Shown here: positions 10,125 through 44,534 of the stretch, piece after piece | Layout of the letters: the number at the start of each line of letters is the position of its first letter | Numbering within the stretch: the stretch's first letter is position 1 | Origin: Catenaria anguillulae PL171 | Taxonomy: Eukaryota; Blastocladiomycota; Blastocladiomycetes; Blastocladiales; Catenariaceae | NCBI GenBank assembly: GCA_002102555.1 | Contig: MCFL01000045.1 | Span: forward strand, 62,001 to 126,000 | Direction: 5' to 3' | DNA length: 64,000 nucleotides | Notes under the pieces: model-generated | Seen by the model: only the letters and a program-made list of their open reading frames with translations | Databases searched by the model: none | What the model was told of the DNA's origin: nothing | Translations under genes and position numbers: made by a program

Positions 10125-11520
10125 TTTTTTTTTTTTTTTTTTAAATACACTACTGCATGTATTGTGGGCTACGACCAACTCAAAAGCTCCAAAGAGGAGG
10201 AAGCAAGAAGGAAGAGACCAGAACACAACCGCTACAAAATGAGCGTCACAAGCAAGCAAGAAGGGAGGGCAGGCAAGTGGCAGTAGGGGCCGCAAGCGAC
10301 CATGGGGACGAGGCGGGAAAGGAAATTGAGGAGCAGGCGGGGAGGAGCAACAACAAACCAACCAGGAAACAGCCTTTCAGATGTCCTCTGGGCTCAGCAC
10401 ACCCTTCTTTTTTGCCTTGTGGGCCCAACTCAGCTCTTGCGCAGCTGTCAAAGCGGCTGCAAAGTCTTTGGACTGCCAAAGCTCGTCCAACACTACTGCT
10501 AGGTCCGCCTCAACAATGGCAAGGTCGCGGTTGACCCGCATATACCGCTCAGAGGTCCTTGCCTTGTGGGCCTTCAACTCGGCCACCATCTCAGACTCGG
10601 CATCAAGCTCGGTGGTGAGGGTCTCGAGACTTGCCGAAAGCCCCTTGACCGTACTGGCAAGTGACTCTTGGCGAGTATCAAGCTCCTCGACTTGCTTGGC
10701 GACCTTGTCCTGCGCCAGTTTGAGGGCCGCAAGCAGCTCATCTTGCCGGGCACAGAACTTGGCCAGCTGCTCCTTCATGTCATTGACTTGACCTGCCAAA
10801 TACGCGACCTCGGCACGCAAATCCCTCTCGACTGAGTCAACCTTGTTGAGGGCTTGCTTGGCAGCATCAGCATAGCTGACACCGCCAGCACTTGCCGGCG
10901 CCGGCGCGGGGAACGAGAAGGAGGGAGGCAGGGTCTTGACTGGAGGGCGTGTGGGGCATGCATTCCTCAAGTGGTCCAGGGAACCACAAGAGAAACACAA
11001 CTTGGCAGTACCAGGAAAGAAGCGCAAATCATGACCGTTAAGAGCGTACTCGCCAAGGCCAACGGCGGCGTCGGCATCCTCCTTGGACTCGTACCGCCAC
11101 AAGATGCGGGAGAACGAGCGAGCGCGGCAGTTGTCGACCAGCAGGGCATGGCCCTTGGCGAGCAAACCAGGGAGCTGGCGGATCGTGTTGTACGCACAGA
11201 GAATCTGCACGTTCTTGGCTTGGTCGGCACGCTGGTTGAACCACTCCTTGACATCAGTCATGGCGTGGATGTACTGGCCGCGGAAAAAGGTTGAGGGCTT
11301 GTTGATGGCCGAGGCCAAATCATCTTGGCTTTTGTATGAGACTTGTAAAAACTTGATTCCAGCGACAGTACGGTGCCCGAGGAGCGCATCGACATTGTAG
11401 TATGGCTTGAGCCGGGCGACAGTGGCCTGCGGATCAACAGAGAAAGGGACGGGTCCCACCCAACCAGTGATCGCTGACGCCTGGGCATCAACAATCATGA
11501 GGTCGGTCATGGCAAGCGAG
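10125..11520 (-). mobile_element. ORF1-only retroelement (half-LINE), copy 1
   Basis: Read on the minus strand the element has an ORF1-type gene (11510-10377), a ~230-bp 3' region and an 18-base poly-A (T tract 10125-10142). There is no endonuclease, RT or RNase H frame. Just before the poly-A lies AATACATGCAGTAGTG, nearly the same end as the LINEs here. It interrupts the hAT transposase. A matching target-site duplication on the right (expected near 11520-11600) was not found, so the 5' boundary is approximate. Confidence 0.7.
10377..11510 (-). CDS. LINE ORF1-type protein with CCHC knuckle and coiled coil
   Basis: This intact 377-residue frame starts at ATG 11510. The N-terminal third (about 15-170) shares an organisation with the ORF1 of the full LINE in this window, with blocks such as WVGPVPFSVDP, STFFRGQYIHAM and LLVDNCRARSFSRILW. 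A CCHC knuckle follows (KLCFSCGSLDHLRNAC, about 190-205), then a Pro-rich linker and a long heptad-type coiled coil (about 230-370). ORF1 proteins of non-LTR elements bind and package the element RNA. It is the only gene of this element. Being intact while most neighbouring TE genes are broken is notable. Confidence 0.75.
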   Translation of the reverse strand: MTDLMIVDAQASAITGWVGPVPFSVDPQATVARLKPYYNVDALLGHRTVAGIKFLQVSYKSQDDLASAINKPSTFFRGQYIHAMTDVKEWFNQRADQAKNVQILCAYNTIRQLPGLLAKGHALLVDNCRARSFSRILWRYESKEDADAAVGLGEYALNGHDLRFFPGTAKLCFSCGSLDHLRNACPTRPPVKTLPPSFSFPAPAPASAGGVSYADAAKQALNKVDSVERDLRAEVAYLAGQVNDMKEQLAKFCARQDELLAALKLAQDKVAKQVEELDTRQESLASTVKGLSASLETLTTELDAESEMVAELKAHKARTSERYMRVNRDLAIVEADLAVVLDELWQSKDFAAALTAAQELSWAHKAKKKGVLSPEDI

Positions 11521-13680: not shown

Positions 13681-14037
13681 TTAAATGTCTCTGCTATGCA
13701 TAGAGTTGCCGCTTCGCCGCCTACTTGTGCCGCTACACAATTTGTTGCTTGTCCTTCGTGCACTGGTAAAGGAAAGGGATGTTGTGCTTGAGCTTGTCAA
13801 GGTCAAGGGCCATGATGGGAATGTCGAGAATGAAAAGGCAGACGAGTTGGCTCGCTGTGGTGCAAACTGCCGCGAGGTGTACGCCCTATCGCCGCGGTTT
13901 ACGGGCAAAATTGACTTTGGGGCGCTGGTGCAGATTGGCCATGAGTTGGTGTATGCGCAGGTGGGCCGCGAAATCCGGCGTCAAGTGCAGGTGCAATCCC
14001 GTATTGAGCTGTATTTGTACATGCTCAAGCTGGTTGG

Positions 14038-14390
14038 TTTTTTTTTTTAAAAATACAAGCAGCCTATGTCCTGAGGGAGATAGACCATTGATACACAAAG
14101 ACACAAGCTCATACACACAAACACACAACTCCTTGGACTTGGCACTTGGGTACGTGCTTGGGGCCTTGGACCTTTGGCTTGATTCTGGCCTCGTACAACC
14201 ACCAACAGAGGGTGGGCAAAGCAAGAATGCAAGCAATGCAGGTGCAGGTGCCAGGAGGCCAGGGGCTGAAGGAGGCAATGTGGAGCAGAGACCAAGCAAC
14301 CACATGTGCACCAGATGACTTGGGTGGGGTTCGAACCCACGACCTTCGCCTTGCAAGGCGGGAGTGTTGCCACTATGCCAAAACCACTGG
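14038..14390 (-). mobile_element. tRNA-derived SINE, family 1 (copy a)
   Basis: Read on the minus strand, a tRNA-like head contains an A box (TGGCATAGTGG, complement of 14370-14380) and a B box (GGGTTCGAACCC, 14327-14338). A ~270-bp body follows, then the tail TGTATTT plus A-rich sequence (T tract starts 14038). It is flanked by a perfect 18-bp target-site duplication, catgctcaagctggttgg, at 14020-14037 and 14391-14408. It splits the LINE-C RNase H region; removing it and one duplication restores the frame. The body is the same family as the copy at 44163-44518. Confidence 0.92.
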
Positions 14391-14856
14391 CATGCTCAAG
14401 CTGGTTGGCCAGCCGGACTTGATCGTGTTTGATGGGGCCATTCGCAACAGCCGTAAGGCGTCGTCCATGATTGCGTCATTGGCTGACGATTCATCAGTCA
14501 CGTTCCGCGTCAAGGTTTTGACGGGCCGCCTGCCAACTCGCGCCCAGCTCCACAAGTATTGGCCGGGCCAGGTACCATCCCCGAATTGCGTGCTTTGTGG
14601 CGCGCTTGACGATCAACGGCACTGGTTCAGATGCCCAGCGCTCGCCGACTTTCTCTGGATGTGCCGGCTAGACGTGCATGATCAAGTGTTGGGGCTGCTA
14701 CGACGCCGTAAGATGACAGCGCAATGTGTGTCTGCAAGAACACTGGTCGAGCGACTCATGAGCTTGCCCAAGATCCAAGCGACAGCAGCGTGCGTGGTTG
14801 ACGTTCACTTGCGACAGCAGTTCCCCCAACTTGCACCCACTCTCGCGCAGATTGTT

Positions 14857-15103
14857 TTTTTTTTTAAAAATTTAACCTCAGACAATTGCACATATATGAC
14901 ATTCAAGTACACCACCACACAACACAATCACTTGATGGAGGACAGAAGTAACTTGGAAAGTCTTGTGCTTTGACATAGGCATGGCCACAGAGGGACATGC
15001 GATGCTTGTCTTGAGAGGACCAAGCGACTTGGGTGGGGTTCGAACCCATGACCTTTGCCTTGCAAGGCGGGAGTGTTACCACTGTGCCAAAACCACTTGG
15101 CTA
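14857..15103 (-). mobile_element. tRNA-headed SINE, family 2
   Basis: The same head as family 1 (B box GGGTTCGAACCC at 15036-15047; A box TGGCACAGTGG, complement of 15079-15089) is joined to an unrelated ~150-bp body and its own A-rich tail (T tract from about 14857). It has a perfect 18-bp duplication, actctcgcgcagattgtt, at 14839-14856 and 15104-15121. It is inserted in the LINE-C ORF2 C-terminal region, 449 bp after the first SINE. Sharing only the head shows two SINE bodies using one pol III promoter module. Confidence 0.88.
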
Positions 15104-15906
15104 ACTCTCGCGCAGATTGTTGCCATTGCCTCCACAACCATTCGGACTGTATTGTGGAAGGAACATTGCAGGCTTGTTGGACCAATTGAGCGGCACACAC
15201 CAGAGGAACGGTCAACTCATCGGCCTTGCCATTTTGCCCATTGCCAAGAGGGACGCACCTCAGGGACCCAGCAGTCGCTCATGGATTCCGCACTCATTGC
15301 CGCGCACTACATCCATGAGTGCCGTGTTGGCTGCCCGCCACTTGCTGGCTCCCTGACCACCTCGCAAGTGCCAGTTTCCTTTGATGAGTGGAGATTCCAC
15401 GGCACATTCCCAGGGCTCTCGACCCCCCAATTCGGATTTGGCCACGCAGAGCAACGCTTTGCCACTTGTGTTGGAGTACAGCCAGGTACACACTCTATTT
15501 TTGTCCCCTCGCCGTCCCCTACGGCTATCTCTGCGCTCGTGGCGTAATTCCTCTTCCATTCCTCCATGTCTCTTGTTTACCTTACCCTGTTCCCCGACAT
15601 TTGCTTTTGAGCCATCGATTTTCTTTTGCATGTTGCTGATTCTGTGCACCCATGATATGGTTGATTGTTAACTTTTTGATTTTGTTTCTCCCTTTCTGTT
15701 TACCTCCTCTTTTTCCCTCTCCTCCTCTCCCTCTTTTTTCACCCCATGGCCAAGTGCCCCTACCACCAACTGCTTGCCATTTTCCTGCTTGCTTTTGTCG
15801 TTTATTGAGTGTTTTGGATCTGTGACCTTCCGGCTCTTGTACCTTATTTCAGGGCTATTGTGTTGGTTTTTCAGCTTCAATACATGTGGTAGTGATTAAA
15901 AAAAAA

Positions 15907-18882
15907 TGCAGCACTGGCGCCGATCCAATCATGTGCTTGAGCGTGTTGAACGCATCCTCGCACTTGACCGTCCAGTCGTCGTCTGTTATGACGGTCACGA
16001 ATCGTAACGCGTCAAGTGGAGCGGCGACCGTGGCCATGTTGATCATAAAGTGCCGCAGGTAATTGACGGTTCCAAGGAGCGACTGCACCTGCTTGCCAGT
16101 CGTGGGGCGTTCCAAACCCTGGATGTCAATGATCTTGGCCGGCGCAGGGCGAATCGCGCCGTTGCCGATGACATGGCCAAGTAATGGATCTCGGGACAGT
16201 ACCAGTGGCACTTGGACGGTTTGATGCGGAGGTTGAACTGGTTGAGGCGGTGCATGACTTCAATGAAATGAATTGTGTGCTCCGACCAACATGCTGAAAA
16301 TGACAAGATCGTCAATGTACACGCGAACGTAGGGCAAGTCGGCAAAGATGGGCTGCATGACCCGCTGGAATCGAGACAACAATGCCTTGAGGCCAAATGG
16401 TGCCCGCTTGAAGCAGTACTGCACACCTTGCCATTTGAAACAAAGGTACTTGCGCGAGCGGCAAGAAACGCGGAATTGGTTAAACGACACATAAAGATCA
16501 ATGGACGAAAACACCTTGGCGGCGCATGCCTCATTGAGATGGTCAAAGATGAGCAGAAGAGCGTGCGAGTCATCGGAAGTAATGTTGTTGATGACACGCG
16601 GGTCCATGCAAACACGATAGCCAGTGTAGTTACCCCGCGCATCCTTCTTCTCCACCACCACCAAATTCAAATTCCACGGCGACTCAAACTCGTTACGCTC
16701 AATCACATCCTCATCCACCCACGTACCCACCTGCCCTTCCATGACAACCTTCTTTTCGTGCGTGAATTGGCGCTCCCGCTCTTGCACGGGGCGTTCTTTG
16801 CCTGGCAGAATGTTGACATGGACCGTGGACAGCGGGTGGATGCACGCATTGCCCTTTGGAATGGACGCGTTCTCGTTGATCAGGCGCTGGACGTCGTCCG
16901 GGAGCGCCGCGATGAGCGATGGTTGATCCTCAGGGAAGAGTGCAGGTCGCTCGTCAATCTCAGGATCGAGACGCGGCTGCCTGCCTTGCTTGGGATCCAA
17001 GTTTTCAACGCTGATACCGAGTGTGTGGAGCGTGGTGTTGCCAATGAGAGGCGGAATGTTGATATCCAAATCGTAAATGCCAAAGCGAAATTGTAAATGC
17101 CAAAGCGACAAACGACGGATCGACCGTTGAAGCGAAGGAGTGTATCGACAATGCCGAGGCATGGCGACAGGCCGCCAATCCCACGGATGGCCATGGGCTT
17201 GGGCAGCGGTCGAACGTGGTCGTGGAAATGGTTGGCATATTGCTTTGGGAGTACATTGCGGTCACTGCCCGTGTCCAAGCGACACGTGAGCGTGGTCGGG
17301 GTGAGCGCCTTGAATTGTAAACGGCCGGTCGACGCATGGAGCTGATCATGCAGCTCAGAGTCGGGTGGACAGTTGAGGCGCGGGCCTGAACGGCGGACCG
17401 CAATCACTGGCGACAGCTCGGCATTCACCTCAATTCGCTTTGGTGAAGCAGAACGAGTATCATGGGCAACAATTGGTGTATTATCTTGCAACAACACGTT
17501 CACAGGCGGATCAGCAGCCGAGGGCTTGCACTGGTCAGCCGCCGGATTGCCCAATACCACTGCACAAATGTCCTGCGACTCAACCAATTGGTCCTTGAGC
17601 TCGTCGTGGTTTGCTGGCAGCTTGCCCGATACCACTTGACAAAAACTCTGTGAGTTGCAAGAATGCCAACAGGGGACGTCAGCTTTTGTCTGCATGACAA
17701 TTGCGGGTGCAATGGTGGTGCACGTCATTCTTCAATCGCATCATGCATGGTCTCGTCGGCAGTGGCAACCAAACTGGACGTGCCAGCCAAGACTCGGTCG
17801 AATTCCGTTCAACGCTGCTCCTCACCGCCATTCAAGGATGACGGATCAGGCAAGGGTGAGGTTTGACCAGCCCTGACCGGGTTCCTGTTGCCAACAGCCT
17901 CCACCAAAGCACTCTGCACTGGCACCTCGTCTCCCCCCTCACAGACCCAAACAATGCGCCAGCCAACAGAGACTGCGTTCCTCTTGATCCTGGCCAATAC
18001 CTCGGTATCCGAATGATCCGAGAAACCTCGCGCAAACGAGGGGACAAGTGTGCCCACGAGCAAAGGAACGCACTGGCCACCGTGGCCATTCGTACACCCT
18101 CAAAATCCTGATCGCTTGCCACAGCGTCCATGAATGCCTTGATACGGCGCATGTACCCGAGCGGCTCGCAGCTCGGCCTTCTCAAACTTGGCCATGAGGC
18201 CATTGAGGAATGCGGTGCCGGTGCCCTCGTCGATGATCTTGGCCAATGAGCCAAAGTCGTGCTCGTTTACAGGCAAGGCCAAACGAGCGTGGCCAAACAC
18301 TCGGCCAAACTTGTTGTAGGCTGTGATCTTGTTGCACTTGACAGTCGGATGGTTGGGAATTTCTGACACGTCTAGATCCGAGGCCATGGAGCCGGCCGCA
18401 CAATCATGCTCGATAAAACGAATGCGCATTTGCTGGGCTTCGGCCTTGGTTGGCGAGCGTGGCGTTGCTGCACCACGGCCCTGCCTGCGCTTCTTGCTGG
18501 GCGGCGCGGAGAATTGCTCGTTGGCGGCATCCTCGCTCGCGCGCTTGTTGCCAGCATTCGCTGACGCATTGTCGGCAGCAGATCCGGCATTGCCAGCCTC
18601 AATCACCAACACGTCGGCAGGGCAAGCTGAGTTTGCTGCTGCGCCTTGCTGCTGATGGCCATGATCGGCCGTGCTACTTGTATGCCCGTTGTGCGCAGTG
18701 TACTTGTTCGTGTAGCCGCCACGGTAACCACCGCGATGCCCACCACGGTATCCGCCACCACGGGATGATGAGCCTGAATGGTTTTGCGAACCATCCTTGG
18801 CACTCTGCGTCTGCGCACCATCCTTGTTGTTGGTCGGCGACTTGCTCGAGCTCGTGGTGCTCGACTTGGTGTTGTTTTGCAC
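15907..18882 (-). mobile_element. Ty3/gypsy fragment: gag, protease, start of RT
   Basis: Minus-strand order from 18882: a basic gag-like region with an Arg/Gly/Tyr-rich segment (GGGYRGGHRGGYRGGY), an aspartic protease with DTGS (LTCRLDTGSDRNVLP, about 17265-17310), then RT with PWNLNLVVVEKKDARG, YRVCMDPRVIN, FSSIDLYVSFNQ and the catalytic YIDD (VYIDDLVIFS, about 16300). Frames shift several times (for example near 18250, 17100 and 16260). RNase H and integrase are absent: the fragment ends at the poly-A of LINE-C. This copy cannot be autonomous. Confidence 0.8.
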
Positions 18883-19491: not shown

Positions 19492-21222
19492 GTGCGCGTT
19501 CCAAGAGCGTACAAAGAAGCACAAACCGACGAAAATGCAGAGTATTGGAAGTATGCAGAGCTAGTCGAGCTTGCGGCTCTTGAAGGAAACGGCACATTCG
19601 AAATGATCAAGATTCAACCTGGCCAGCGACCGATTGGGTGCCAATGGGTTTATGACACGAACAGCAACCCAGATGGGGTACTGACCAAGTGCAAGGCGAG
19701 GCTTGTTGCCCGCGACCAGCAATCGGCCGAAGGAATGGAGATGTACTCTGGGACCCCATGTTTGAACGTCGTATGCATTGTCATCGCCCTTGCTGCCGCC
19801 CATGGCTGGACTGTTTTCGCCATGGATGTATCCAACACGTATCTCCACGCAACACTCAAACAACCAACCCTCATGTGGGCGCCACCAGGTTACTATGTTG
19901 AGAAGGACGAGGCGCTACTACTCATCAAGTCGCTCTACGGATTGAAGGAGGCGGGTCGCCACTGGGCCAAGTACTTGCACGAGGTGTTGTTTGCGCTCGG
20001 TTTTGAAGGCTGCAAGAATGAGGACTGCGTGCTCGTGCAAAAGGACAAGCAGACTGTGTCTGTTCTTGTTCTCATCGTCATCTATGTCGACGACTTGCTC
20101 ATCACTGGACCATCGATGGCCGCCATCGAGTCAACCAAGATGCAGTTGCTCACGCACAAGATTGGGGAGAAACCTGCGCTCAACATCAAGGACCTTGGCG
20201 TCGCTGATGGATTTCTCAACGCAAAGCGTGTTCAGCGACATGATGGCATCTGGCTTGGGCAGCCACAGCACATTGAAGGAATCATCCGCGAGTTTGGCAG
20301 CGAAGTCCATGCCCAAGATCGGCCCGCGCGCGACCACGTTCGTTGTCAAGGAAGAAGTTGACCCAGCGCCTCTCTCGCCCGAAATGCACAAGCGGTACCA
20401 GAAGTTATTGGGCATGCTCCTCTTCGTTGCGACTGGAACACGCCAGGACATCTCCTTTGCTACGGCACTTTGCAGCTCGGCGAGCATGCAACCCCAGCAA
20501 ACACAACTACCCCGACCTGCTCACAGTCGTGGGATACCTCCAGCGGTATCCCGATCTGGGCATCTGGTACCCAAAGGTTCCAACCGGCTCGTCATTCTGG
20601 GACAAGGTTGATGGGTACTGTGATTCATCCTACGCTGACGACCCCAACACGCAACGCTTAACGTCAGGTTTCTGCTTCCGCATTGGACGTGGCCTCGTAT
20701 CATGTCAAGTCGGAGGCAACCATGGGTCGAGACATTGACAGCAGAAGCAGAGGTGAATGCCACTGTAGAAGCAGTCTGAGATGGGACATGGCTGGTCCGA
20801 TTCCTTGCCGTGCTCATCAGTAAATTGCGCCAAAACCCGATTCGCATTAATTGCAACAACAAGGCTGCGATCGCACTCGCAAACGGAGATGGTCTCCACC
20901 GCACAATCCGCCACGTCGCCGTCCGACTTGCATTCCTGAGCGAAAATCAGCGCCGCGACTATGTCCGGCTCATGTTTATTGCCGGGTTGCAGAACATTGC
21001 CGATGGCTTCACCAAGCCCCTCGGTATCCGGCTGTTTGCCCGCTTCTGAGAGTGGTTGAACCTTCAACTGTGCCCACAGTGTGACTTGTAGATCCCCCCC
21101 TTTCTGTATGTATATATGTACATGTTGCGGATATTCTTGCCATGTACTATGTCCTGCCACCTGATGGATTCATGCTTGCAGCGAGTTGCTTGATATGTCC
21201 AAGTTGGCGCCTGCGGGGGAGT
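19492..21222 (+). pseudogene. Ty1/copia reverse transcriptase-RNase H, frameshifted
   Basis: The first frame (to 20361) carries copia RT signatures: GCQWVYDTNSNPDGVLTKCKAR, FAMDVSNTYLHATL, LIKSLYGLKEAGRHW and the catalytic YVDD (VIYVDDLLITGP, about 20080). The frame shifts near 20345 to a second (to 20738: DGYCDSSYADDPNTQRLTSG), then to a third at 20810-21049 with the RNase H tail (NCNNKAAIALANG, ADGFTKPLG). Gag, protease and integrase are absent upstream. A polypurine run (GCGGGGGAG, 21213-21221) precedes a TG dinucleotide, as expected at a 3' LTR. Confidence 0.82.
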
Positions 21223-22010
21223 GTGGGAAAATGGAGGATCTGCATGGTCCAGGCGCGTTGACAGTAATGGATCAGGGGACCAGTGCCGATCCTCATTGTA
21301 CAGTCAGGTACCACGTTTGACAATATGAGAAAGAGAAGAGGACTGAGAAAACGGTACTACGATGAGACAAGCAACGACGACTACCCACAATGCCTGAATG
21401 CCCACATAACCAACCGTATGCTAGCGGCCAACAAGATATCACGACCTCAGCTGTTGCTGTGCAGGTCATTCCAATGTTTCTGGGCATGTCCGATGCTGAA
21501 GCGGTTGCGCCACGCCACCCGTCGCCATTGCACGACTTGCTACTCGTCCTCCGCGCACTAGTCAAAGAACGGCGTATTGTGCTAGAGCTCGTCAAGGTCA
21601 AGGGCCATGATGGGAACTTGGAGAATGAGAAGGCAGACGAGCTGGCCCGCTGTGGTGCAAATTGCCGCGAGGTGTGCGCCCCATCACCACAGTTTCTGGG
21701 CAAGATCGACTTTGGTGCGATAGTGCAAATCGGCCATGAGTTGGTGTATGCGCAGGTGGGTCGTGCAATCCGGAGTCAAGCGCAAGTGCAATCCCGTATC
21801 GAGCTGTATTCGTACATGCTCAAGCTGGTTGGCCACCTGGACTTGATGGTGTTCAACGGAGCCGTTCGCAATGGTCGCAGGGCATCGTCCATGGTCGCGT
21901 CGTTTGCTGACGATTGATCAGTCACGTTCCGTGTTGAGTCGTAACGAGACAGTCACAACGGAAGATATATGTTAAGGTCCAGCTACTTAGCTGGAGAGCT
22001 TGAATGGGTT
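21222..22010 (+). mobile_element. LTR-like end of the copia element, interrupted by a LINE fragment
   Basis: The polypurine tract followed by TGTGGGAAAATGG marks a likely 3' LTR start. LTR-like sequence continues to about 21420, is interrupted by LINE RNase H coding sequence (about 21430-21940), and may resume to about 22008 before TGGGTTCGGG. The far boundary is uncertain because no second LTR was aligned. Confidence 0.4.
21430..21940 (+). pseudogene. LINE RNase H fragment
   Basis: It encodes SAVAVQVIPMFLG, LLLVLRALVKERRIVLE and VKVKGHDGNLENEKADELAR, then about 80 residues that match the corresponding region of LINE-C. It ends at an in-frame TGA (21916) and loses similarity soon after. There is no poly-A, so it is an internal piece of a LINE of the LINE-C subfamily, not a canonical 3'-anchored insertion. 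Confidence 0.7.
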
Positions 22011-31061: not shown

Positions 31062-34000
31062 ATGCTGACTCCTGCAACACACGCCGAGTTCCCCACCAAC
31101 ATCCTAGTCGCCAACATCCGCGGCTCCCAAGCGCACGACCGACTTGTCGAGACCCTCAACTATGCACAACAACAACGTGCGGGCATTGTGATAACTACAG
31201 AGACCAAGTTGTCCGACAAGGGGGCCCGCGGGCTGAACTGTGCGGCGCTCGACCAAGAATGATGATCAAGATTGCACATGATGGTACACGCGCGCAAGGA
31301 TCGGGAGTTTTGGTGGCAATAGACCCCAGACTCGAGAGCTACGTTGGCAGATGGTCAATCTATGATGGGTACATGGTGGCTTTCACATTCCAGGGCCGCG
31401 GCGACTTCAAACTGCGTGTCATTGGCATCTACGCGCCGCCTCAAGAACCAACCATTCGCGCGTCGCTAACCCGTCCCTACGATCCGAGATCGAAGCAGCA
31501 GACGCAAGGGGCGAGATGCTGTGGTTGCGGGCGACATGAACGAGCGGGATGACACTGCAAGTCGCCGTTGGAGCGGTCGCGCTTGGGAACGGACTCTTGG
31601 ACCTCGCAGTGCATCTGGATATGGCTGTGAGTACTCACGAGGCTGGTGGACGCCTGGACCGTGTCTTTGTTTCGCCAACCATCACACATGACGTGCTTGC
31701 CATGTCAATTGTTGACGCCCGGGGCTTTGACCACGCGCGACTCGTTCTTCAAACGGCGCTTGCACTCCGACTGGACCGCGACCTTGTTCACATGCGACGA
31801 CGAGCCCGACAAGAGGCCGCCAGGTATGTACTCGATGAGAACCGTCTAACTGGCAAGTCGTGGGCCGCGTTTGTCTCCAGAGTGTGCACAGATCTAGGGA
31901 TTCGAATCAACAACACCGACACCTTCCCAGCGTGGGTCGACGCCGAGTCACTCGAAAGCAGCGACAACAATCAACTTCCGGCCGTTTTGGACCCAGCACT
32001 GCCAATTGGGCACAGATGGTACCTGTATGAGAACATCATGCTGGCTGCCAGCCGTGCACAGTTACCTCACAAGAAGCGTTGTGCCTCCGAGTCCTACGGA
32101 TCTGTTTTGAAGCCACCAGAGAGCAAGACGGATTCGGCATTGGCGCTAGGTGCGTTGCGACGCTTGCTTGACGACCCTTCCACTAGCTTGACTGTTGAAG
32201 AACGTGATGCGCTCGATCGAGTGGCACCAGCAATTGGTACGGAATCCTCGCATGACGACATGGTGCGTGAAAAAGAACGACTACTCGAGATTGTGGTGAC
32301 GGAGTCGGCGCAGGCAAAAAGGGAGCAGATCGACGCTGTGGTGGCCTCGCGAACGGGAAAGTTTGGCGTGAAGACCGGAGTTGTCATGCGATCAGTCATG
32401 GAGCGGAAACGACCACCCAACTGCCTGGACCGGGTGGTGACTGCAGACGGCATCAAGCTGCTTCCAAGCGAGGTCATGGATGCGACAGCTGCTCATTGGC
32501 AAGGTTGCTTCGGACATGAGGAACATGGGAACATAGATCAGGCTCCAGTGTCGATCCGCCAAGCATTGCAACCACTGCAGTGGGTCCAAGAATCGTGGTG
32601 GGATGGGGTGGAAAAGGAGGTCACACCCGAGGACATTGCTCACGTCTTGTGTTCAATAGACATTGACAAGGCCCCAGGAGCAACAGGACTTCGCCACCGT
32701 CACTACGCTGCGCTTGGAACCGTCGGGCAAAGAATTCTAGCACGCTTGTTCACTGACATGTATCTGGCAAACTGGGTGCCGAGCGAGTGGCGATATGGAG
32801 TCATTTACCTAACGCCAAAAAAGGCAGAGGGCTACACGGGTGACGTTGACGCCATGCGACCCATCACCCTACTCGAATGTGCATCCAAGCTGTTCAATGC
32901 GGTCATGTGGCGGCGTATTCAAGATGTGGCCGTCGAAAGACAAGTGCTGCGTGGTGCTCGTTTCTCAGCGCTCAAGGGTACCGACACACGCCTCCCAATC
33001 GACATTCTCCATGGTCTTATCGCCCAAGCGCAAGCAGCCGACGCTGAGGAGGAGTTGTGGGTGTATTCAGAGGACAAGTCAAAAGCATTTGACACTGTGC
33101 CACATCACTTTGTACGCCTGGCGCTCTTGCGGTTGCGCTTGCCGGTGCAATTTGTGGATTTCTATTGTCGCAACTTCCTAGAGGGGCGCACTGCATCGCT
33201 GATCACGGCATTTGGATTGACAAGGCGGATTCAGCTTCACCGTGGTATACCCCAGGGTGGCGTCGAATCGCCGTTCCTATGGAATGCATTCTACGACATT
33301 CTGCTGTGTGCGGTGGAAGAGAGCAGCGGTGGTGTCGAGCTACTAATTAAGGTACCGGACACAGGTGGTGGGAAGCCGTTCGGAAGTGTGAAGTGATTGA
33401 TCGTCAGCGGTACGTAGCAATTGGGTATATTGACGATGCTATTTTCTTTGCCCGCTCGCGTGAGCTACTCCAGCAGGTCGTGGACTTGGTCGACGCGTTC
33501 AACCTACTCACCCGGATCCGGGCAAACGCAAGCAAAGGCTTTGTACTGGCTTTCAACACAAGAGACGGCGGGGTGGGGAGTGTGACGTCGAGAGGAGTTG
33601 AGGTGCCGCGCGCAGGCCAAGGAGAGATGAAGAGATACCTGGGTGTATTTGTGGATGGGTCTGGATCAAGGAAGGCGACGGAAAAAGTGATGAGGGATGC
33701 TGTGACAAGTGCAATCAACGTCCTGAGGACGAAACGGGTCCCAGCCAGGATTGTGGTATACGTGATCAACTCAGCAATCATCCCCGCGGTCGCGTACCGT
33801 GCGTTCGGTTACATCCCGTCACCGACATTCCTTGACCAGCTTGATGCGAAGCTCCGTGCAGTGGTTCGAGCTGCGGCAAGATTGCCATCCAACACACCGG
33901 TCTCGTTGTTCTACGATGCAGCCACATACGGACTTGCCTCCATCAAGCACACCATCCTCACAGCTCGAGTCTCGCACCTTCGCTACTGTTTGAGCCAACC

Positions 34001-36528
34001 CGTGCAAAGCGAGCGTTTTCAAGTCGCATGCGCCATATCCAGTCTTGCCCAACGTGCAATCCGTTGGTGGGCCAACCCACTCTCGCACCCACCAAGCCAG
34101 TTTACATCAGCAGGTCTCCCTGCCTCTCCGCTTCTAAACCTTTTTCCCCTTCTTTCTAGTTCTCTCACCTCAATTCACCTCGCTGGGCGTGCTGACCCTT
34201 TACGTGTTTGTCCGGTGGATGACATCCCTTTGGAGGCCGTCATCCCGTCGCCTGTCCTTCATACCTTGCGCTCCCGTCTCCATGATACTGGTGTTTACTC
34301 ACTTTCTCCCCTTGTTTCCCTCTGTTGCTTCCAAGATCAGGACAGTACCCCAGCACGGTATGCAAATGCGTTCGCCTCTATCCGGCATTTGCTTGCCAAG
34401 AGATGCCCTCGCCGTGGTCGCCTGCACAATGCCCTGGTTGCTTTGACCAACGCCATTTCCGACTGGTGCACATCTCTCGGCCCAGTTGCTGCGATGCCGA
34501 TTCAGCCCCGACTGGCCCTTTCGCCGCGACACCATGTCAGCCAACTCATGGTCTTTTTGGGGGAAAATGGGCTGCCAACCTTTGGTGTGTGTGTTGCCGT
34601 TGATTCCCGTAACACGGTGAACGGACAAATCGCCACGCTGCGCCACCTCGCAGAATGCACTTGCCTGATGCTTGACGAGGGTGTTGTGCCCCCCGACCAC
34701 ACTCTCCTCCATTTATGCCTTGACTGTGGTGATACGGGTGACTGCCAATTGTCGTCAACAAAGTGTGACGTGCCTGACTGCCTCGTCAGCATCCCACTTG
34801 CGTACACGTACCCAATCTCAGCCAATCTCTCACGAAGCGTCGGGATGGTGTGGACGCGTATGTTGTTCTCGCGCCCAACCACGAATTGCCGGAGCACGCC
34901 CGTACATGTCCAGTTTCTTCCCTGGGTATGCGCAAGACGACATGGATGTAGACAGCGACAACGTCAGTGACGACGACCAGTGCCACCGTCCAACTCGGCC
35001 TACTCAGATCCTCCACTCGCAATGTCACACGACCGCTCACAGCACACCATGGCACGATCCTTGACTGTTGGACTGATGGCTCGCTGCGGCCTGCCACGGA
35101 CGTGGACAACGCCGCAATGGGGCTTGGCGCTCACTGCCCCCAGCTTGACCTGGAAGTCATCGGCCGCTTGCCGCCTGCGCCAACCAGCTCATCGCGCCCG
35201 AGATTGCTGCTATCATTGCCATTGTTGACAAGCTCCCTGATGGATCGCATGTGCGTGTTTTCTCAGACTCGGCTGTCGCTGTGCAGGTTGTTCCCATGTT
35301 TCTGGACCTGCCCGATGCCAAGTCGATTGGGCCACGTCACCTGTCGCCGCTGCACGACTTGTTACTTGTCCTTCGTGCACTGGTCAAGGAAAAGAAGCTC
35401 GTGCTGGATCTCGTGAAAGTCAAGGGCCATGACGGGAATGCAGGGAACGAGAAGGCTGACAAGCTTGCCCGTTGTGGTACAAATTGCCGTGAGATGTACG
35501 CCTTTTCGCCACGGTTTCTGGGCGCAATTGACTTCGGAGCGCTGGTGCAGGTAGGTCATGAGCTGGTGCATGCGCAGGTGGGCCGCGCAATTCGGCGACA
35601 AGCACAGATGCAATTCCGCGTCAATTTGTACTTGTATATGCTCAAGTTGGTTGGGCAGCCTGACTGATGGTGTTTGACGGGGCCATTCGCAATGGTCGCA
35701 AGGCATCAGCCATGTCCGCGTCGTTTGCCGACGACGCATCGGTCACGTTCCGCATCAAGGTTTTGACGAGTCGCCTGCCAACTCGCGCTCAACTCCACAA
35801 ATATTGGCCAGAGCAGGTGCCGTCCCCAAATTGTGTGCTCTGCGGTGCTCTTGACGATCAGCGCATTGGCTCAGGTGTCGCACACTTGCCAACATACTCT
35901 GACATGCCGATTGGATGTGCACGAACAAGTTGTGGAGCTGCTACGGCGCCACAGGATGACGGCACACCAAGCGGCAGCAAAGACACTTGTCGAGCGGCTA
36001 ATGGATCCAGCCAAACTACGGGCAACTGCAGCATGCGTAGTTGAAGTGCGCCTGAGACAACAATTTCCCAACCTCGTATCTATCCTCGCGCGAATCGTCT
36101 CAATCGCTTCTACGACCATCCAAACTGTGCTGTGGAAGGAGCGTTGCAGGCTTGTTGGACCGATCGAGCAACGCATGCCAGAAAACCCGCTTGTGGCCCG
36201 GCAGCCCTGTCAATGTCCCCACTGTCAGGAGGCAGGCGCCCCAGTGGCCCATCAGTCGCCCATGAACCTTGCGCTCGTTGCCGCACATTACATCTACGAG
36301 TGCCACGCTGGCTGCCCACCCCTCGTTGGCTCCTCATCAGTCTCGCATGCACCGGTTTCCTTTGGCGAATGGCGATTCCACGGCACCTTCCCAGGGCTCT
36401 CAACCCCCAGGTTTGGGTTTGGACACTCACAGCAACGCTTTGCTACCCGTGTCGGGGTACAGTCGGGTACATATTCTGTTTTTGTCCCCTTGCTCTCTCC
36501 AACTTCTACCTCTGCGCGTATGGCGTAA
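31062..36528 (+). pseudogene. LINE-D ORF2: endonuclease, RT, RNase H
   Basis: The endonuclease (about 31090-31680) shows ITTETKLSD and IGIYAPP, a GDMNERDD block that is readable only in a shifted frame near 31535, and GGRLDRVFVSP. RT (about 32640-34000) has MRPITLLECASKLFNAV, SEDKSKAFDTVPHH, RGIPQGGVESPFLW and catalytic GYIDDAIFFA. RNase H (about 35060-35480) has CWTDGSLRPATDV, RVFSDSAVAVQ and GHDGNAGNEKAD. The end holds PSPNCVLCGALDDQR. Frame breaks occur near 31259, 31540, 33390 (GAAG where LINE-A and LINE-B have GAAAG), 34830-35000, 35665 and 35865. The last frame ends at 36528. Confidence 0.85.
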
Positions 36529-36700
36529 CCTTCCCTTGTCCTTGTATGCTCACCATTGTGTTGGCTCTGCTTCCCTTTATTTGACTTCGAACTGTCTTGG
36601 TTCTTTGTTGCATGTTGTTCATTGTGTGCATCCGTGGTGTGGTTGAATGTCGACCTCAGACCCTGTTACTTTCCGTCTGCTTACTTCTTCTTCTTCTTCT

Positions 36701-36737
<37 letters not shown>

Positions 36738-38145
36738 ACTCTCTTCTCTACCTTACCCTCTCTGTTGTCCCCATGGCCAAGTGCCCCTACCACCAATTGC
36801 TTGCCATTTTCTCTGCTTGCTCTTGTCATCTGTTGAGTGTCTTGGATCTGTGGCCTTCCTGCTCTTGTACCTTCTTTCAAGACTTCTGTGTTGGTTTTCA
36901 GCTTCAATACATGTGCTAGTGATCCAAAAAAAAAAAAAAAGCGATTGCATGTGCATTGGAGGCGGCGTTACCAGTGATCAAGTGCGGGATGTGTTGGTTC
37001 CATGTGAAGCAATGCATCGAGAAGAAATGCAAGGCCGAGTACATGGCCGGTGTCATTCAATTGGTTCACGCACTCCATTGGACCAACAACGAGGACGAGT
37101 TCAAAGCACGACTTCTCAATTTGTTCAATCACTTGAACGACAAGGCGGTTTTCGACATGCCCGCCAAGACAGATGCTGCTGAGCAGTTCTGGATGTACTT
37201 TATCAACGAATGGACCCGTGGATACCCTGTCGCCTTCGACGATCCAACGGAACCGGCCGGCCGCGGCGTGCGCAAATCGCAGTCTCGTTGGTACAGATGG
37301 CGAGTGTTCGATTTGCCAACTGGTGTTGTGTGCACGAACAATTCAGTTGAGGCCAAGCACAAGGTCTTCAAGACCATGTTCCGGATCGCCGTTGCCCAAA
37401 ACGTCCTCACAACATTTCAGCATTGTCAGACGTGGGTGCAGCGGAACGGCACGCTGGAAAACGGTATCCGCCATCGTCCTGCTGTCGGTATACGTTTATT
37501 GATTCCTGACACGAATTCCCTCGCCGATTGATCTTTTTTCCAACATTTAACTTGAAATTTCACTATTGCTCGCCAGGCCAAGTACAAAGATGAAGCCGAG
37601 CGATGGGCCAACAACGCGCAGTCGTGTCAACTGCACCCGCGCATTGAAAGAGGGACCTACATCATCACGTTCACAGGTCCCATTCCTGGCAAACTCTTTG
37701 GCGGTTACTCCTTTGTCGCCCCGCCTTACACGTCCCTCGAGTACAATGCTGTCCAAACAAACACCATCACCATTCCGCAATCATCGCTCTACTTTCCGAG
37801 TTGCGACTGTTGCTTTTGCACCCGCAATGTCTGGTGCTTGCACATGCTGGTGGCGTCAATTCGCATCGGGACTCGGATCCATCAATCCCTCCCGCAAATG
37901 GCGACACTGCAGGCAGTGGGCCGCCCTGCGAGGCAAGATCGTCGGCACCGTCCTCGCCGCGTGGGTCCTGCTTTGGACGACCGCCAATGACAAGTTCTTG
38001 GTGCTTCCACCCCAGTGCTGATAGCCGTATTTGTTAGTCCCAGCTCTTATTATTGAATTTATGCACGATATATATACTTATTTGCAAAGCAATTGGCCAT
38101 GGCGAACATGTAGCATCTGCCAAAATGCCAAAGTTGGTGTGTGGT

Positions 38146-38390: not shown

Positions 38391-41300
38391 CCGTCGAAAG
38401 ACAAGTGCTGCGTGGTGCTCGTTTCTCAGCGCTCAAGGGTACCGACACACGCCTCCCAATCGACATTCTCCATGGTCTTATCGCCCAAGCGCAAGCAGCC
38501 GACGCTGAGGAGGAGTTGTGGGCGTATTCAGAGGACAAGTCAAAAGCATTTGACACTGTGCCACATCACTTTGTACGCCTGGCGCTCTTGCGGTTGCGCT
38601 TGCCGGTGCAATTTGTGGATTTCTATTGTCGCAACTTCCTAGAGGGGCGCACTGCATCGCTGATCACGGCATTTGGATTGACAAGGCGGATTCAGCTTCA
38701 CCGTGGTATACCCCAGGGTGGCGTCGAATCGCCGTTCCTATGGAATGCATTCTACGACATTCTGCTGTGTGCGGTGGAAGAGAGCAGCGGTGGTGTCGAG
38801 CTACTAATTAAGGTACCGGACACAGGTGGTGGGAAGCCGTTCGGAAGTGTGAAAGTGATTGATCGTCAGCGGTACGTAGCAATTGGGTATATTGACGATG
38901 CTATTTTCTTTGCCCGCTCGCGTGAGCTACTCCAGCAGGTCGTGGACTTGGTCGACGCGTTCAACCTACTCACCCGGATCCGGGCAAACGCAAGCAAAGG
39001 CTTTGTACTGGCTTTCAACACAAGAGACGGCGGGGTGGGGAGTGTGACGTCGAGAGGAGTTGAGGTGCCGCGCGCAGGCCAAGGAGAGATGAAGAGATAC
39101 CTGGGTGTATTTGTGGATGGGTCTGGATCAAGGAAGGCGACGGAAAAAGTGATGAGGGATGCTGTGACAAGTGCAATCAACGTCCTGAGGACGAAACGGG
39201 TCCCAGCCAGGATTGTGGTATACGTGATCAACTCAGCAATCATCCCCGCGGTCGCGTACCGTGCGTTCGGTTACATCCCGTCACCGACATTCCTTGACCA
39301 GCTTGATGCGAAGCTCCGTGCAGTGGTTCGAGCTGCGGCAAGATTGCCATCCAACACACCGGTCTCGTTGTTCTACGATGCAGCCACATACGGACTTGCC
39401 TCCATCAAGCACACCATCCTCACAGCTCGAGTCTCGCACCTTCGCTACTGTTTGAGCCAACCCGTGCAAAGCGAGCGTTTTCAAGTCGCATGCGCCATAT
39501 CCAGTCTTGCCCAACGTGCAATCCGTTGGTGGGCCAACCCACTCTCGCACCCACCAAGCCAGTTTACATCAGCAGGTCTCCCTGCCTCTCCGCTTCTAAA
39601 CCTTTTCCCCTTCTTTCTAGTTCTCTCACCTCAATTCACCTCGCTGGGCGTGCTGACCCTTTACGTGTTTGTCCGGTGGATGACATCCCTTTGGAGGCCG
39701 TCATCCCGTCGCCTGTCCTTCATACCTTGCGCTCCCGTCTCCATGATACTGGTGTTTACTCACTTTCTCCCCTTGTTTCCCTCTGTTGCTTCCAAGATCA
39801 GGACAGTACCCCAGCACGGTATGCAAATGCGTTCGCCTCTATCCGGCATTTGCTTGCCAAGAGATGCCCTCGCCGTGGTCGCCTGCACAATGCCCTGGTT
39901 GCTTTGACCAACGCCATTTCCGACTGGTGCACATCTCTCGGCCCAGTTGCTGCGATGCCGATTCAGCCCCGACTGGCCCTTTCGCCGCGACACCATGTCA
40001 GCCAACTCATGGTCTTTTTGGGGGAAAATGGGCTGCCAACCTTTGGTGTGTGTGTTGCCGTTGATTCCCGTAACACGGTGAACGGACAAATCGCCACGCT
40101 GCGCCACCTCGCAGAATGCACTTGCCTGATGCTTGACGAGGGTGTTGTGCCCCCCGACCACACTCTCCTCCATTTATGCCTTGACTGTGGTGATACGGGT
40201 GACTGCCAATTGTCGTCAACAAAGTGTGACGTGCCTGACTGCCTCGTCAGCATCCCACTTGCGTACACGTACCCAATCTCAGCCAAATCTCTCACGAAGC
40301 GTCGGGATGGTGTGGACGCGTATGTTGTTCTCGCGCCCAACCACGAATTGCCGGAGCACGCCCGTACATGTCCAGTTTCTTCCCTGGTATGCGCAAGACG
40401 ACATGGATGTAGACAGCGACAACGTCAGTGACGACGACCAGTGCCACCGTCCAACCTCGCCTACTCAGATCCTCCACTCGCAAATGTCACACGACCGCTC
40501 ACAGCACACCATGGCACGATCCTGACTGTTGGACTGATGGCTCGCTGCGGCCTGCCACGGACGTGGACAACGCCGCAATGGGGCTTGGCGCTCACTGCCC
40601 CCAGCTTGACCTGGAAGTCATCGGCCGCTTGCGCCTGCGCCAACCAGCTCATCGCGCCCCGAGATTGCTGCTATCATTGCCATTGTTGACAAGCTCCCTG
40701 ATGGATCGCATGTGCGTGTTTTCTCAGACTCGGCTGTCGCTGTGCAGGTTGTTCCCATGTTTCTGGGACCTGCCCGATGCCAAGGCAATTGGGCCACGTC
40801 ACCGTCACCGCTGCATGACTTGTTACTTGTCCTTCGTGCACTGGTCAAGGAAAAGAAGCTCGTACTGGATCTCGTGAAAGTCAAGGGCCATGATGGGAAT
40901 GCAGGGAACGAGAAGGCTGACGAGCTTGCCCGTTGTGGTACAAATTGCCGTGAGATGTACGCCTTTTCGCCACGGTTTCTGGGCGCAATTGACTTCGGTG
41001 CGCTGGTGCAGGTAGGTCATGAGCTGGTGCATGCGCAGGTGGGCTGCGCAATTCGGCGACAAGCACAGATGCAATCCCGCGTCAATTTGTACTTGTATAT
41101 GCTCAAGTTGGTCGGGCAGCCTGACCTGATGGTGTTTGACGGGGCCATTCGCAATGGTCGCAAGGCATCAGCCATGTCCGCGTCGTTTGCCGACGACGCA
41201 TCGGTCACGTTCCGCATCAAGGTTTTGACGAGTCGCTTGCCAACTCGCGCTCAACTCCACAAATATTGGCCAGAGCGGTGCCGTCCCCAAATTGTGTGCT

Positions 41301-42161
41301 CTGCGGTGCTCTTGACGATCAGCGGCATTGGCTCAGGTGTCGCACACTTGCCAACATACTCTGACATGCCGATTGGATGTGCACGAACAAGTTGTGGAGC
41401 TGCTACGGCGCCACAGGATGACGGCACACCAAGCGGCAGCAAAGACACTCGTCGAGCGGCTAATGGATCCAGCCAAACTACGGGCAACTGCAGCATGCGT
41501 AGTTGAGGTGCGCCTGAGACAACAATTTCCCAACCTCGTATCTATCCTCGCGCGAATTGTCTCAATCGCGTCTACGACCATCCAAACTGTGCTGTGGAAG
41601 GAGCGTTGCAGGCTTGTTGGACCGATCGAGCAACGCATGCCAGAAAACCCGCTTGGGCCCGGCAGCCCTGTCAATGTCCCCACTGTCAGGAGGCAGGCGC
41701 CCCAGTGGCCCATCAGTCGCCCATGAACCTTGCGCTCGTTGCCGCACATTACATCTACGAGTGCCACACTGGCTGCCCACCCCTCGTTGGCTCCTCATCA
41801 GTCTCGCATGCACCGGTTTCCTTTGGCGAATGGCGATTCCACGGCACCTTCCCAGGGCTCTCAACCCCCAGGTTTGGGTTTGGACACTCACAGCAATGCT
41901 TTGCTACCCGTGTCGGGGTACAGTCGGGTACACATTCTGTTTTTGTCCCCTTGCTCTCTCCAACTTCTACCTCTGCGCGTATGGTGTAACCTTCCCTTGT
42001 CCTTGTATGCTCACCATTGTGTTGGCTCTGCTTCCCTTTATTTGACTTCGAACTGTCTTGGTTCTTTGTTGCATGCTGTTCATTGTGTGCATCTGTGGTG
42101 TGGTTGAATGTCGACCTCAGACCCTGTTACTTTCCGTCTGCTTACTTCTTCTTCTTCTTCT

Positions 42162-42208
<47 letters not shown>

Positions 42209-42421
42209 TTCTCTCTTTCTCTCTCTCTTCTCCACTTACCCTCTCTGTTGTCCCCATGGCCAAGTGCCCCTACCACCAGTTGCTTGCCATTTTCTCTGCT
42301 TGCTCTTGTCATCTGTTGAGTGTCTTGGATCTGTGGCCTTCCTGCTCTTGTACCCTCTTTCAAGACTTCTGTGTTGGTTTTCAGCTTCAATACATGTGGT
42401 AGTGATCCAAAAAAAAAAAAA
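38391..42421 (+). mobile_element. LINE-B: 5'-truncated LINE with poly-A
   Basis: It starts within the RT region (equivalent to LINE-D 32930) directly after the MULE end, and runs through RT, RNase H and the C-terminal region, stop at about 41987-41989, a CT-microsatellite 3' UTR and poly-A at 42409-42421. The RT frame is intact from 38405 through GYIDDAIFFA to about 39600, where one missing T shifts it. It is almost identical to LINE-D. No target-site duplication was found: the left neighbour is the MULE TIR, the right neighbour a copia integrase fragment. Confidence 0.85.
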
Positions 42422-42423
42422 CA

Positions 42424-44140
42424 AGGCCGTCCAGGTGGAGCAGGTGGGCACGCGCACGCTCATTGATGTGCCGATTGAGACGCTCAATGTGTCCATTTGC
42501 CTGGTGGTGGCAAGCAAGCGACAAGTAGCGCGGACATTGCGCTCAGCGAGCCACCTGTCGAACTGGGCGTTGACAAACTCTGTGCCATGGTCGTGTTGGA
42601 TGGCCTGCAGGCAGCGCAAAGTGCGACACTCCCAGAGTGTCACAAGCGAGACGAAGCACGGAAGACGGAATCAGACTTGTCAGGGATTGGGACAATGGCA
42701 CAAAAATCGGAGTAATCGTCAAGCACAACAAGCAAGTGTTGGACGCCGCCATCACCAAATCGAGCGACAATGTTGAGGTCGATGAACAAACGTTGGAGTG
42801 GTTCAGTTGATCTGAGGAACTGCGATGCAGCAAATGTGCACTGCTGAGTCGCTAGGCCAGGCCACACGTGTGGCAATCAACGGTGTGTGGGTGCAGGCCG
42901 AGCAACTTGCAAAGCATCGTCCACAACAGTCCAGAGATGTGGTTGTAAGCAATGTGGAGCTGGAGCAGGCAGTCAGCGGACAGCGACCCTGACACAGGAT
43001 CCGCGGTGGAATCTGCCGCCGCAGTGTATGCCAACTCAAATGCACGTTCAAAGTCGGTCTGGTAGACCTCACTGAGTTTGCCAATGCGGCTGTCAAACAG
43101 GGAGTTCGCACAAAACATGTAGTCAGCACCGTGTGAGGCAACGTAGGCCATGGCGATAGAGTTGTTGCTGCCAAGCGCAAACGGCTCCCAAGTATCAACA
43201 TCGCGCAAGCCACCAGCGTACACACCAGCAGCAGCAGCATCCTGCAAGAGCACAAGGAGCACAGAGGCCCCGTTGCACACAGGCAGCCCCACTTCCGCAG
43301 CATGGCAGCCATAGGGAGGAACCAAAGACCACCCTGGGCAACAAGCGGGAAGCGTGGCAGGGTGATGTTGTCACACACGCAGTGGGCCGGGACAGAGTCC
43401 GGCTGGAGCACGGGAGGCAACCTCGGGCGGCAATCAGGAGCATGAATCACAATGTACTGAATTCCGATGAAAGTAGAGAATTGGATACGGGGATACACAA
43501 CAGTGACGAGTTGCGGGGAGAGCAAGCGGGTGGCCAAACAAGGCACAAGGAGGACATTGAACAAGTAGATTGGTGGGTGATCAGACCCTAGGGGAAGCTT
43601 GACTGTCCCAATGTGTGTGGCAGACACGAAACTCTTGTTGGCAACAGAGATCTTGCACTCAGCGGCGAGCAGGGTCAGATCGACAAAGTCACTCCTAAAC
43701 AGGGTCATGTGGCGCGAGCAACCACTGTCAACACACCAATCAGAGTGCCCGTTGTGCAGGGAGGCAACAAGTACCTCGTCACAGGCAACAGCGTTGTGCT
43801 GGCCAGCCAAATACGCAACAGCATCGCCAGCGCGCTGGCCGCAGCGGTCATGCCCGTCTTGCGGGGCACGGTCGGCAGCACGTTGAGTTGCACCCATGGC
43901 CAGGGCGCACGCTGGGCCAGGGACACGACCTCCTTCGGCAGCAATGCGCTTGACCGTGGACCACACCAGGTTCTTTGGCATGTTGCAGAGCTGCGGAACA
44001 TGGCCGGTCCAGCCGCAGTTGTCGCAAGTGGCAGTCTTGTGCTCTGCGAGTAAGCATGAGCGGTCGCCTGGCGGGCGCTTGTTCTTGCAGTGCTTCGTCC
44101 AGCACCGCCAGCAACAGGCGTCAAAGTTATTAAGCTTGAA
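42424..44140 (-). mobile_element. Ty1/copia fragment: zinc knuckle, protease, integrase
   Basis: Read on the minus strand from the SINE: a zinc knuckle (ATCDNCGWTGHVPQLC, about 44010-44040), a copia aspartic protease motif (WCVDSGCSRHMTLF, about 43700-43735), a GAG-pre-integrase region (LLQLHIAYNHISGLLW, about 42925-42970) and the integrase N-half (LFIDLNIVARFGDGGVQHLL, DHGTEFVNAQFDRWL). Frames shift near 43400, 42880 and 42640. RT and RNase H are missing: the fragment ends at the LINE-B poly-A. It is split from its gag by the SINE at 44163-44518. Confidence 0.78.
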
Positions 44141-44162
44141 CTGCTGAGACAGGACGCGCTGC

Positions 44163-44518
44163 CAGTGGTTTTGGCATAGTGGCAACACTCCCGCCTTGCA
44201 AGGCGAAGGTTGTGGGTTCGAACCCCACCCAAGTCATCTGGTGCACATGTGGCTGCTTGGTCTCTGCTCCACATTGCCTCCTTCTGTCCCCTGGCCTTCC
44301 AGCCCCTGCACCTGCATTGCTTGCATTCTTGCTTTGCCCACCCTCTGTTGGTGGTTGTACAAGGCCAGAATCAAGCCAAAGGTCCAAGGCCCCAAGCAAG
44401 TACCCAAGTGCCAAGTCCAAGGAGTTGTGTGTTTGTGTGTATGAGCTTGTGTCTTTGTGTATCAATGGTTAGATCTCCCTCAGTACATAGGCTGCTTGTA
44501 TTTAAAAAAAAAAAAAAA
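44163..44518 (+). mobile_element. tRNA-derived SINE, family 1 (copy b)
   Basis: The A box TGGCATAGTGG (44172-44182) and B box GGTTCGAACCC (44215-44225) lie in a tRNA-like head whose anticodon arm is the palindrome CGCCTTGCAAGGCG. A ~270-bp body follows, ending TGTATTT plus about 16 A. The flanking 16-bp duplication agacaggacgcgctgc (44147-44162; second copy 44519-44534 with one C-to-T change) proves insertion into the copia element. The loop of the anticodon arm is six rather than seven bases, so it is not a functional tRNA gene. Confidence 0.92.
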
Positions 44519-44534
44519 AGACAGGATGCGCTGC

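Follow-up and report, generated by a model that had tools for sequence, protein, structure and literature searches.

A young SINE family with a T-run and A-tail in the blastocladiomycete fungus Catenaria anguillulae

Magnaporthe, Fusarium, Erysiphe/Blumeria, Nectria and Aspergillus all belong to the Ascomycota, and Catenaria is a member of the Blastocladiomycota. The fungal SINEs named in the available excerpt of PMC5063351 are those of the first five entries in this list. According to the same excerpt, the tRNA-derived, 472-bp MgSINE of Magnaporthe and Foxy of Fusarium occur in about 100 and 160 copies, respectively, and are dispersed like the F1 family reported here; they come from other fungal lineages and are likened to F1 by description and not by sequence (PMC5063351). 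AfuSINE2 of Aspergillus fumigatus resembles the Catenaria elements in comprising several tRNA-related families whose members carry an A and a B box and are flanked by target duplications, and in heads that do not fold into a cloverleaf. The excerpt gives AfuSINE2 duplications of 4–14 bp, in contrast to 12–21 bp here, and families without significant mutual similarity, whereas the Catenaria families share heads and tails (PMC5063351). The mammalian T+ SINEs B2, Dip and Ves have a short polymerase III terminator with a variable number of Ts directly before the A-tail, where F1 and its relative F3 have a comparable T-run. As excerpted, the T+ terminator is TCTTT, with TATTT instead in Dip and Ves, and TATTT is typical of the ends of F1 and F3; T+ SINEs carry an upstream AATAAA, whereas the Catenaria reference copies do not (PMC8466645). 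Helenus TRIMs are short fungal elements that contain a tRNA-like stretch, as F1 does, but the part of PMC10886601 available describes two LTRs, a primer-binding site and 5-bp duplications, none of which was seen in F1.

We found no description of a SINE from Catenaria, the Blastocladiomycota or any early-diverging fungus in the open-licence papers searched, which agrees with the preliminary description of the family as undescribed-looking. The window, the whole 64-kb stretch of DNA analysed, contains two F1 copies, and the features associated with them are the following.

14038–14390, minus strand: F1 copy 1, with head, body, T5 run and A11 tail
14370–14380, minus strand: A box of copy 1, TGGCATAGTGG
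14327–14337, minus strand: B box of copy 1, GGTTCGAACCC
14020–14037: target-site duplication of copy 1 on the 3' side of the element, 18/18 matching
14391–14408: target-site duplication of copy 1 on the 5' side of the element, 18/18 matching
13730–15896, plus strand: LINE remnant hosting F1 copy 1 and an F2 copy, in four pieces with 71–84% identity to the LINE at 38405–42408
21734–21904, plus strand: paralogous empty site of copy 1, with a single CATGCTCAAGCTGGTTGG at 21815–21832
44163–44518, plus strand: F1 copy 2, with head, body, T3 run and A tail
44172–44182, plus strand: A box of copy 2, TGGCATAGTGG
44215–44225, plus strand: B box of copy 2, GGTTCGAACCC, 43 bp from the start of the A box
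44501–44519, plus strand: 3'-terminal T3 run and A-tail of copy 2, the last A in common with the duplication
44147–44162: target-site duplication of copy 2 on the 5' side, 15/16 matching
44519–44534: target-site duplication of copy 2 on the 3' side, 15/16 matching

Both copies, with their boxes and coordinates, had been proposed from the sequence of the window and are borne out; a pairwise alignment gives 95.9% identity across the 339 bp upstream of the tail. Their flanking duplications, of which none is expected by chance in a shuffled window, had been called perfect, which is correct for copy 1 and not for copy 2, where one of the 16 positions differs. The empty site of copy 1 contains a third instance of the 18-bp duplication and lies within a related LINE piece that lacks the SINE, and it matches the joined flanks of copy 1 at 145 of 170 positions without gaps. 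The empty site of copy 2, in locus L031, is identical in 159 of 170 columns with one end gap. It has the 5'-side version of the duplication, and the mismatch of copy 2 therefore probably arose on the 3' side. The insertion of copy 1 is also present on contig C360, as a duplicate with the same flank.

Our searches covered the 41.07-Mb, 457-contig assembly of C. anguillulae PL171, in which the window is positions 62001–126000 of contig C390. An AtuA-type gene at 52261–53667 of the window matches a C. anguillulae PL171 protein with 98% identity over 94% of the query; two Blastocladiella proteins and one of Allomyces follow as the next three hits, at 55–59%. With copy 2 as the query, there were at least 43 matches, at least 40 of them near full length, the best 40 of 122 candidates having been scored. 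Patterns allowing up to three mismatches were found at 73 places for the F1 head (a count that includes sister-family heads), 38 for the body, 67 for the 3' part and 23 for a variant head, whereas the reversed control patterns of the head and 3' part were found at none. Many dispersed copies had been predicted, and the 67 places of the F1 3' part agree with this. The places of the four patterns merge into 95 elements, 82 of which entered the detailed analysis.

Removal of nine copies with short flanks and five duplicates of other insertions from 91 SINE copies with complete 3' ends left 77 distinct insertions. A target-site duplication with a score of at least 11 is present in 59 of the 77, as opposed to 6 of 616 controls in which the flanks of different copies were paired and scored against the same threshold. 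By family, duplications flank 45/56 insertions of F1 (38/44 of those that are full length), 11/13 of F2, 2/4 of F3, 1/3 of F4a and 0/1 of F4b. Further F1 copies and duplicated flanks were thus both found, and the preliminary description had named the lack of either as counting against it. The duplications are 12–21 bp long with a median of 17 bp, so that the dispersed copies have target-site duplications of variable length, as SINE2 elements do. Sixty-nine percent of the duplications start with A, in part because the A-tail lies next to them, and positions +3 and +4 are A in 57% and 45%, compared with a background of 25%. Among the 18 insertions without a scored duplication, closer reading found one in three of them, and one of the 59 scored duplications rested on poly-A alone, though a true duplication exists there. 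The count of 59/77 was left as computed despite these re-checks because the control was computed in the same way; it replaces a first parse that gave 47/64 versus 11/384 controls, with 18 of 82 elements unparsed.

Paralogous empty sites were identified for 32 of 58 insertions tested, in a search of a small part of the genome. The best match has an identity of at least 87% in 28 of the 32 and of 69–80% in the other four, and both window copies are included, copy 1 via its duplicate on C360. That so many empty sites occur within the small sequence searched indicates that many of the targets are themselves repeats.

In the parse, twelve of the 56 F1 insertions began no earlier than position 16. 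Three of these are the 3' halves of full-length copies that were split later (C66:15272, C68:34203 and C89:2126), with the SINE's own duplication at the outer ends of each, so nine copies are truly 5'-truncated. A duplication flanks seven of the nine, although in one case it became visible only when the search window was widened. The combination of 5' truncation and duplication is expected from target-primed reverse transcription, as in LINEs and SINEs. The three split copies (C66:13748–15456, C68:34203–34609 and C89:2126–6512) also have a duplication at each break, and the splitting sequences are two LINE-A-type ends and one short repeat with a terminal A-run. The 44 distinct full-length F1 copies have a median pairwise divergence of 3.6% (range 0–7.8%) and a nearest-neighbour divergence of 1.5%. 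The median indicates that F1 is young; this age concerns F1 only among the families.

The window contains a third SINE, missed in the preliminary description, which belongs to a sister family designated F2.

14857–15103, minus strand: F2 SINE, with a related head and another body and tail, 87.7% identical to the 235-bp F2 reference
14839–14856: target-site duplication of the F2 copy, 18/18 matching
15104–15121: target-site duplication of the F2 copy, 18/18 matching

The single LINE remnant at 13730–15896 has thus received two SINEs, one F1 and one F2, and a separate 18-bp duplication flanks either of them. F1 is about 338 bp long ahead of the T-run. The heads of F2 (235-bp reference) and F3 (289 bp) are 92–93% identical to that of F1 over 72–74 bp, and the bodies differ. 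F4a and F4b are 362–363 bp long and 84% identical to one another; ARAGORN reads their head as tRNA-Gly(TCC). Close to the 3' end, F2 and F4 have a stretch of about 115 bp in common, at 71% identity, while their heads are 72% identical over 58 bp and their middle parts differ. The F4 head pattern occurs at 35 places in the assembly and the pattern of the F4/F2 tail at 38. From these alignments, F1 is one of at least four SINE families with common heads or tails. What had been described as a SINE family is genuine and is not alone. The different heads and common tail of F4 and F2, together with the similar heads of F1, F2 and F3, suggest an exchange of modules, and heads and tails look swapped among the families. 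On contig C379 (39952–40564), an F1 copy splits an F2 copy, forming a SINE within a SINE with a 17-bp duplication. Two F1 copies, at C357:145822–146160 and in the region of C414:151006, have the same flank and target word and differ in their bodies; they are either a diverged duplicate or two insertions at one site.

The A box is exact in 41 of the 44 full-length F1 copies and the B box in 35, with the relaxed form GGTT[CT][GA]AACCC in 43. The distance between the boxes is 43 bp in 35 of 39 copies measured and 42 bp in three, with one outlier. F1 thus has internal A and B boxes at its 5' end with the spacing of tRNA-type (SINE2) elements, and it is likely, judging from this arrangement, that it is transcribed by RNA polymerase III. 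The earlier reading as a tRNA-derived SINE is supported, with the softening that only a tentative parent can be named for the head. The best real tRNA is tRNA-Ala(TGC), with 51 of 68 aligned positions identical and a score of 62, where shuffled sequences reached at most 50; the comparison covered the tRNA genes in 30 loci (the best 63 of 1333 candidates), and the true parent may lie outside them. The F1 head has no match at the gathering level in Rfam, ARAGORN finds no tRNA in the 64-kb window, and the putative F1 cloverleaf is degenerate. Permissive Rfam matches in two loci, to tRNA-Sec (21 bits, cut-off 47) and to a lncRNA (13 bits), were judged to be chance. Separately, contigs C178 and C341 (loci L039–L044) contain tandem arrays that repeat about every 5.67 kb, and every unit has a cluster of more than ten tRNA genes (Pro, Phe, Leu, Ser, Glu, Met, Asn, Ile, Val, Gly and Lys), and an additional copy of this unit is located near the end of C436 (L045). 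A second tRNA set (Cys, Arg, Ala, Gln and Leu) is present in similar numbers in loci L049–L061 (C128, C167, C279, C456, C400 and others) and may recur as a unit.

The families usually end in T(n)A(n), with exceptions, and the usual end of F1 and F3 is TATTT-A(n). The F1 A-run has a median length of 10 and a range of 0–25 in the 52 of 56 insertions parsed, which constitutes the A-rich tail of a SINE2 element. In the 41 of 44 full-length F1 copies parsed, the terminal run is T1 in two, T2 in three, T3 in 14, T4 in nine, T5 in six, T6 in two, T7 in two and T8 in three; among all F1 insertions it could be parsed in 52 of 56 and ranges from T0 to T8. After TA, at least three Ts follow in 36 of the 41 and at least four in 22. 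A terminator-like T-run directly before the A-tail, characteristic of T+ SINEs, is thus present as a feature of the sequence. TATTT is reported as a moderate terminator in mammalian SINEs, with 42% termination in B2 constructs, in the excerpt of PMC8466645. The five reference copies (one each of F1, F2, F3, F4a and F4b) contain neither AATAAA nor ATTAAA, and so lack the AATAAA that precedes the terminator in T+ SINEs. LINE-A-type ends mostly have no T-run: a like parse of 28 ends gave three with T3 or longer, five with T2 and 20 unparsed, most of which have C before the As.

The length of the T-run is unrelated to the relatedness of the F1 copies (Spearman -0.02). Of 41 copies, 7.3 have the same T-run as their nearest neighbour, versus an expectation of 7.5, and two copies that are identical in the compared part end in T5 and T3. 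Internal T-runs of F1 are nearly constant (T4 in 37/38, T3 in 43/43 and T3 in 38/39 parsed), and the single internal run of four or more Ts is located upstream of the A box, within the first ten bases. Because the terminal run varies independently of relatedness whereas the internal runs are nearly constant, we infer that polymerase III may terminate in the T-run and the A-tail be added later; this suggests a T+-like element without AATAAA.

A live alternative, to which we give somewhat less than an even chance, is that the differences in T-run length arise after insertion, by amplification of T where a short T-run meets an A-tail that is becoming shorter. The terminator of this T+-like SINE would in that case be mutable, as in mouse B2, copies of which with tails of about ten As or fewer show T elongation in the excerpt of PMC8466645. 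The class counts tilt towards this explanation, with T5 or longer in 15 of 35 copies with up to ten As versus 6 of 30 with longer tails, but the correlations do not. T length has no rank correlation with A length overall (rho -0.13, p 0.31) or in F1 (rho -0.06, p 0.68), nor, in F1, with nearest-neighbour divergence as a proxy of age (rho -0.15, p 0.34), and the near-constancy of the internal T4 and T3 runs also speaks against it. Returning to termination followed by tailing, we tentatively propose, with rather more doubt than belief, that an early-diverging fungus independently evolved T+-like SINEs, whose polymerase III transcripts would stop in a 3'-terminal T-run and gain an untemplated A-tail in each retroposition cycle without AAUAAA, in several families that swap tRNA-like heads and tail modules.

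The candidate mobiliser of F1 is a LINE, designated LINE-A, of which the window contains two copies.

31540–36925, plus strand: LINE-A copy one, candidate mobiliser; the coordinates begin at the reverse transcriptase frame 31540–33396 (RVT_1, E 1.1e-12)
38405–42408, plus strand: LINE-A copy two, with 98.3% identity to copy one across 4 kb, ending in AATACATGTGGTAGTGATCC followed by A(13)

LINE-A of the window contains RVT_1 and RNase H domains, and its reverse transcriptase resembles human L1 ORF2 (E 1.6e-9). The reverse transcriptase has 82 matches in the genome, several of them in open frames of more than 1000 residues and up to 1887 residues. On C66, a LINE-A piece splits an F1 copy with a 19-bp duplication, which is in the same length range as those of the SINEs, and on C89 a LINE-A-type end splits another. 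Such a LINE therefore moved after those F1 insertions, with target duplications of similar length. Of 15 LINE-A copies, four have a duplication score of at least 11 (one of them pure A), compared with 7 of 120 controls, numbers that do not demonstrate a target signature common to the LINE and the SINEs. The 3' end of F1 has no part in common with any of six LINE-type ends (shuffle fractions 0.06–0.73), which fits a relaxed partner that reads poly(A), though it does not prove one. It is likely that a LINE enzyme copies F1 back into the genome. Other repeat ends, at 10125–10142, 12178 and 45859–45877 of the window and at other loci, have a AATACATG core before an A-run and probably belong to the 3' termini of related LINE families. 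Remains of transposons abound in the window: RVT_1, RVT_2 and Pol_BBD domains were recognised in fragments at 16263–17162, 19492–20358 and 42806–44188.

It is improbable that the partner is a stringent LINE, one recognising a particular 3' end, from which the tail of F2 and F4 (containing TGTAATTGTCCTGAGGT and ending in T-A) would have been borrowed. F2 and F4 do differ in their heads and middles yet have about 115 bp of the 3' end in common at 71%, and comparisons of F2 with LINE-A ends and of F4a with one LINE-type end gave raw shuffle fractions of 0.01–0.03, among many comparisons. However, three seemingly headless tails are all F4 copies, one with a head and two 5'-truncated, and none is a LINE; no LINE with such an end occurs in the sequence examined.

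Spread of the copies by segmental duplication or assembly redundancy has very little probability: 5 of 82 usable loci, including window copy 1 with its duplicate on C360, do repeat the flank of another insertion, but the 77 distinct flanks and 32 paralogous empty sites lead us to reject it for most copies examined. We likewise reject, as hardly credible, a Helenus-type TRIM, in which an LTR retrotransposon would mobilise a small element whose LTRs include tRNA-like sequence. Such elements do occur in fungi and have a tRNA-like part, but F1 is one unit with an A-tail and has 5'-truncated copies, and its duplications are 12–21 bp long, whereas the excerpt of PMC10886601 gives 5 bp for Helenus in fungi.

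We are highly confident that F1 is a young SINE family moved by retroposition. The observed features behind this reading are the boxes with their near-constant 43-bp spacing, the dispersal with distinct 12–21-bp duplications, the empty sites, the truncated copies with duplications, the A-tails that most copies carry and the low divergence; the genome also contains LINE copies with long open frames. In the proposed cycle, polymerase III would transcribe F1 from the internal A and B boxes, the transcript would terminate in the 3' T-run and receive its A-tail afterwards, and an enzyme supplied by a LINE would copy the RNA back into the genome. F1 is thus a genuine SINE, ordinary in mechanism and, as far as we searched, undescribed for this fungal lineage.

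Catenaria adds several SINE families that share modules, one of them measured as young, to the named fungal cases. The T-run and A-tail at their ends pose a testable question, namely whether polymerase III transcripts are A-tailed without AAUAAA outside mammals. Given the low divergence, the empty sites and the LINEs with long open frames, C. anguillulae could serve as a model of SINE–LINE parasitism in a zoosporic fungus.
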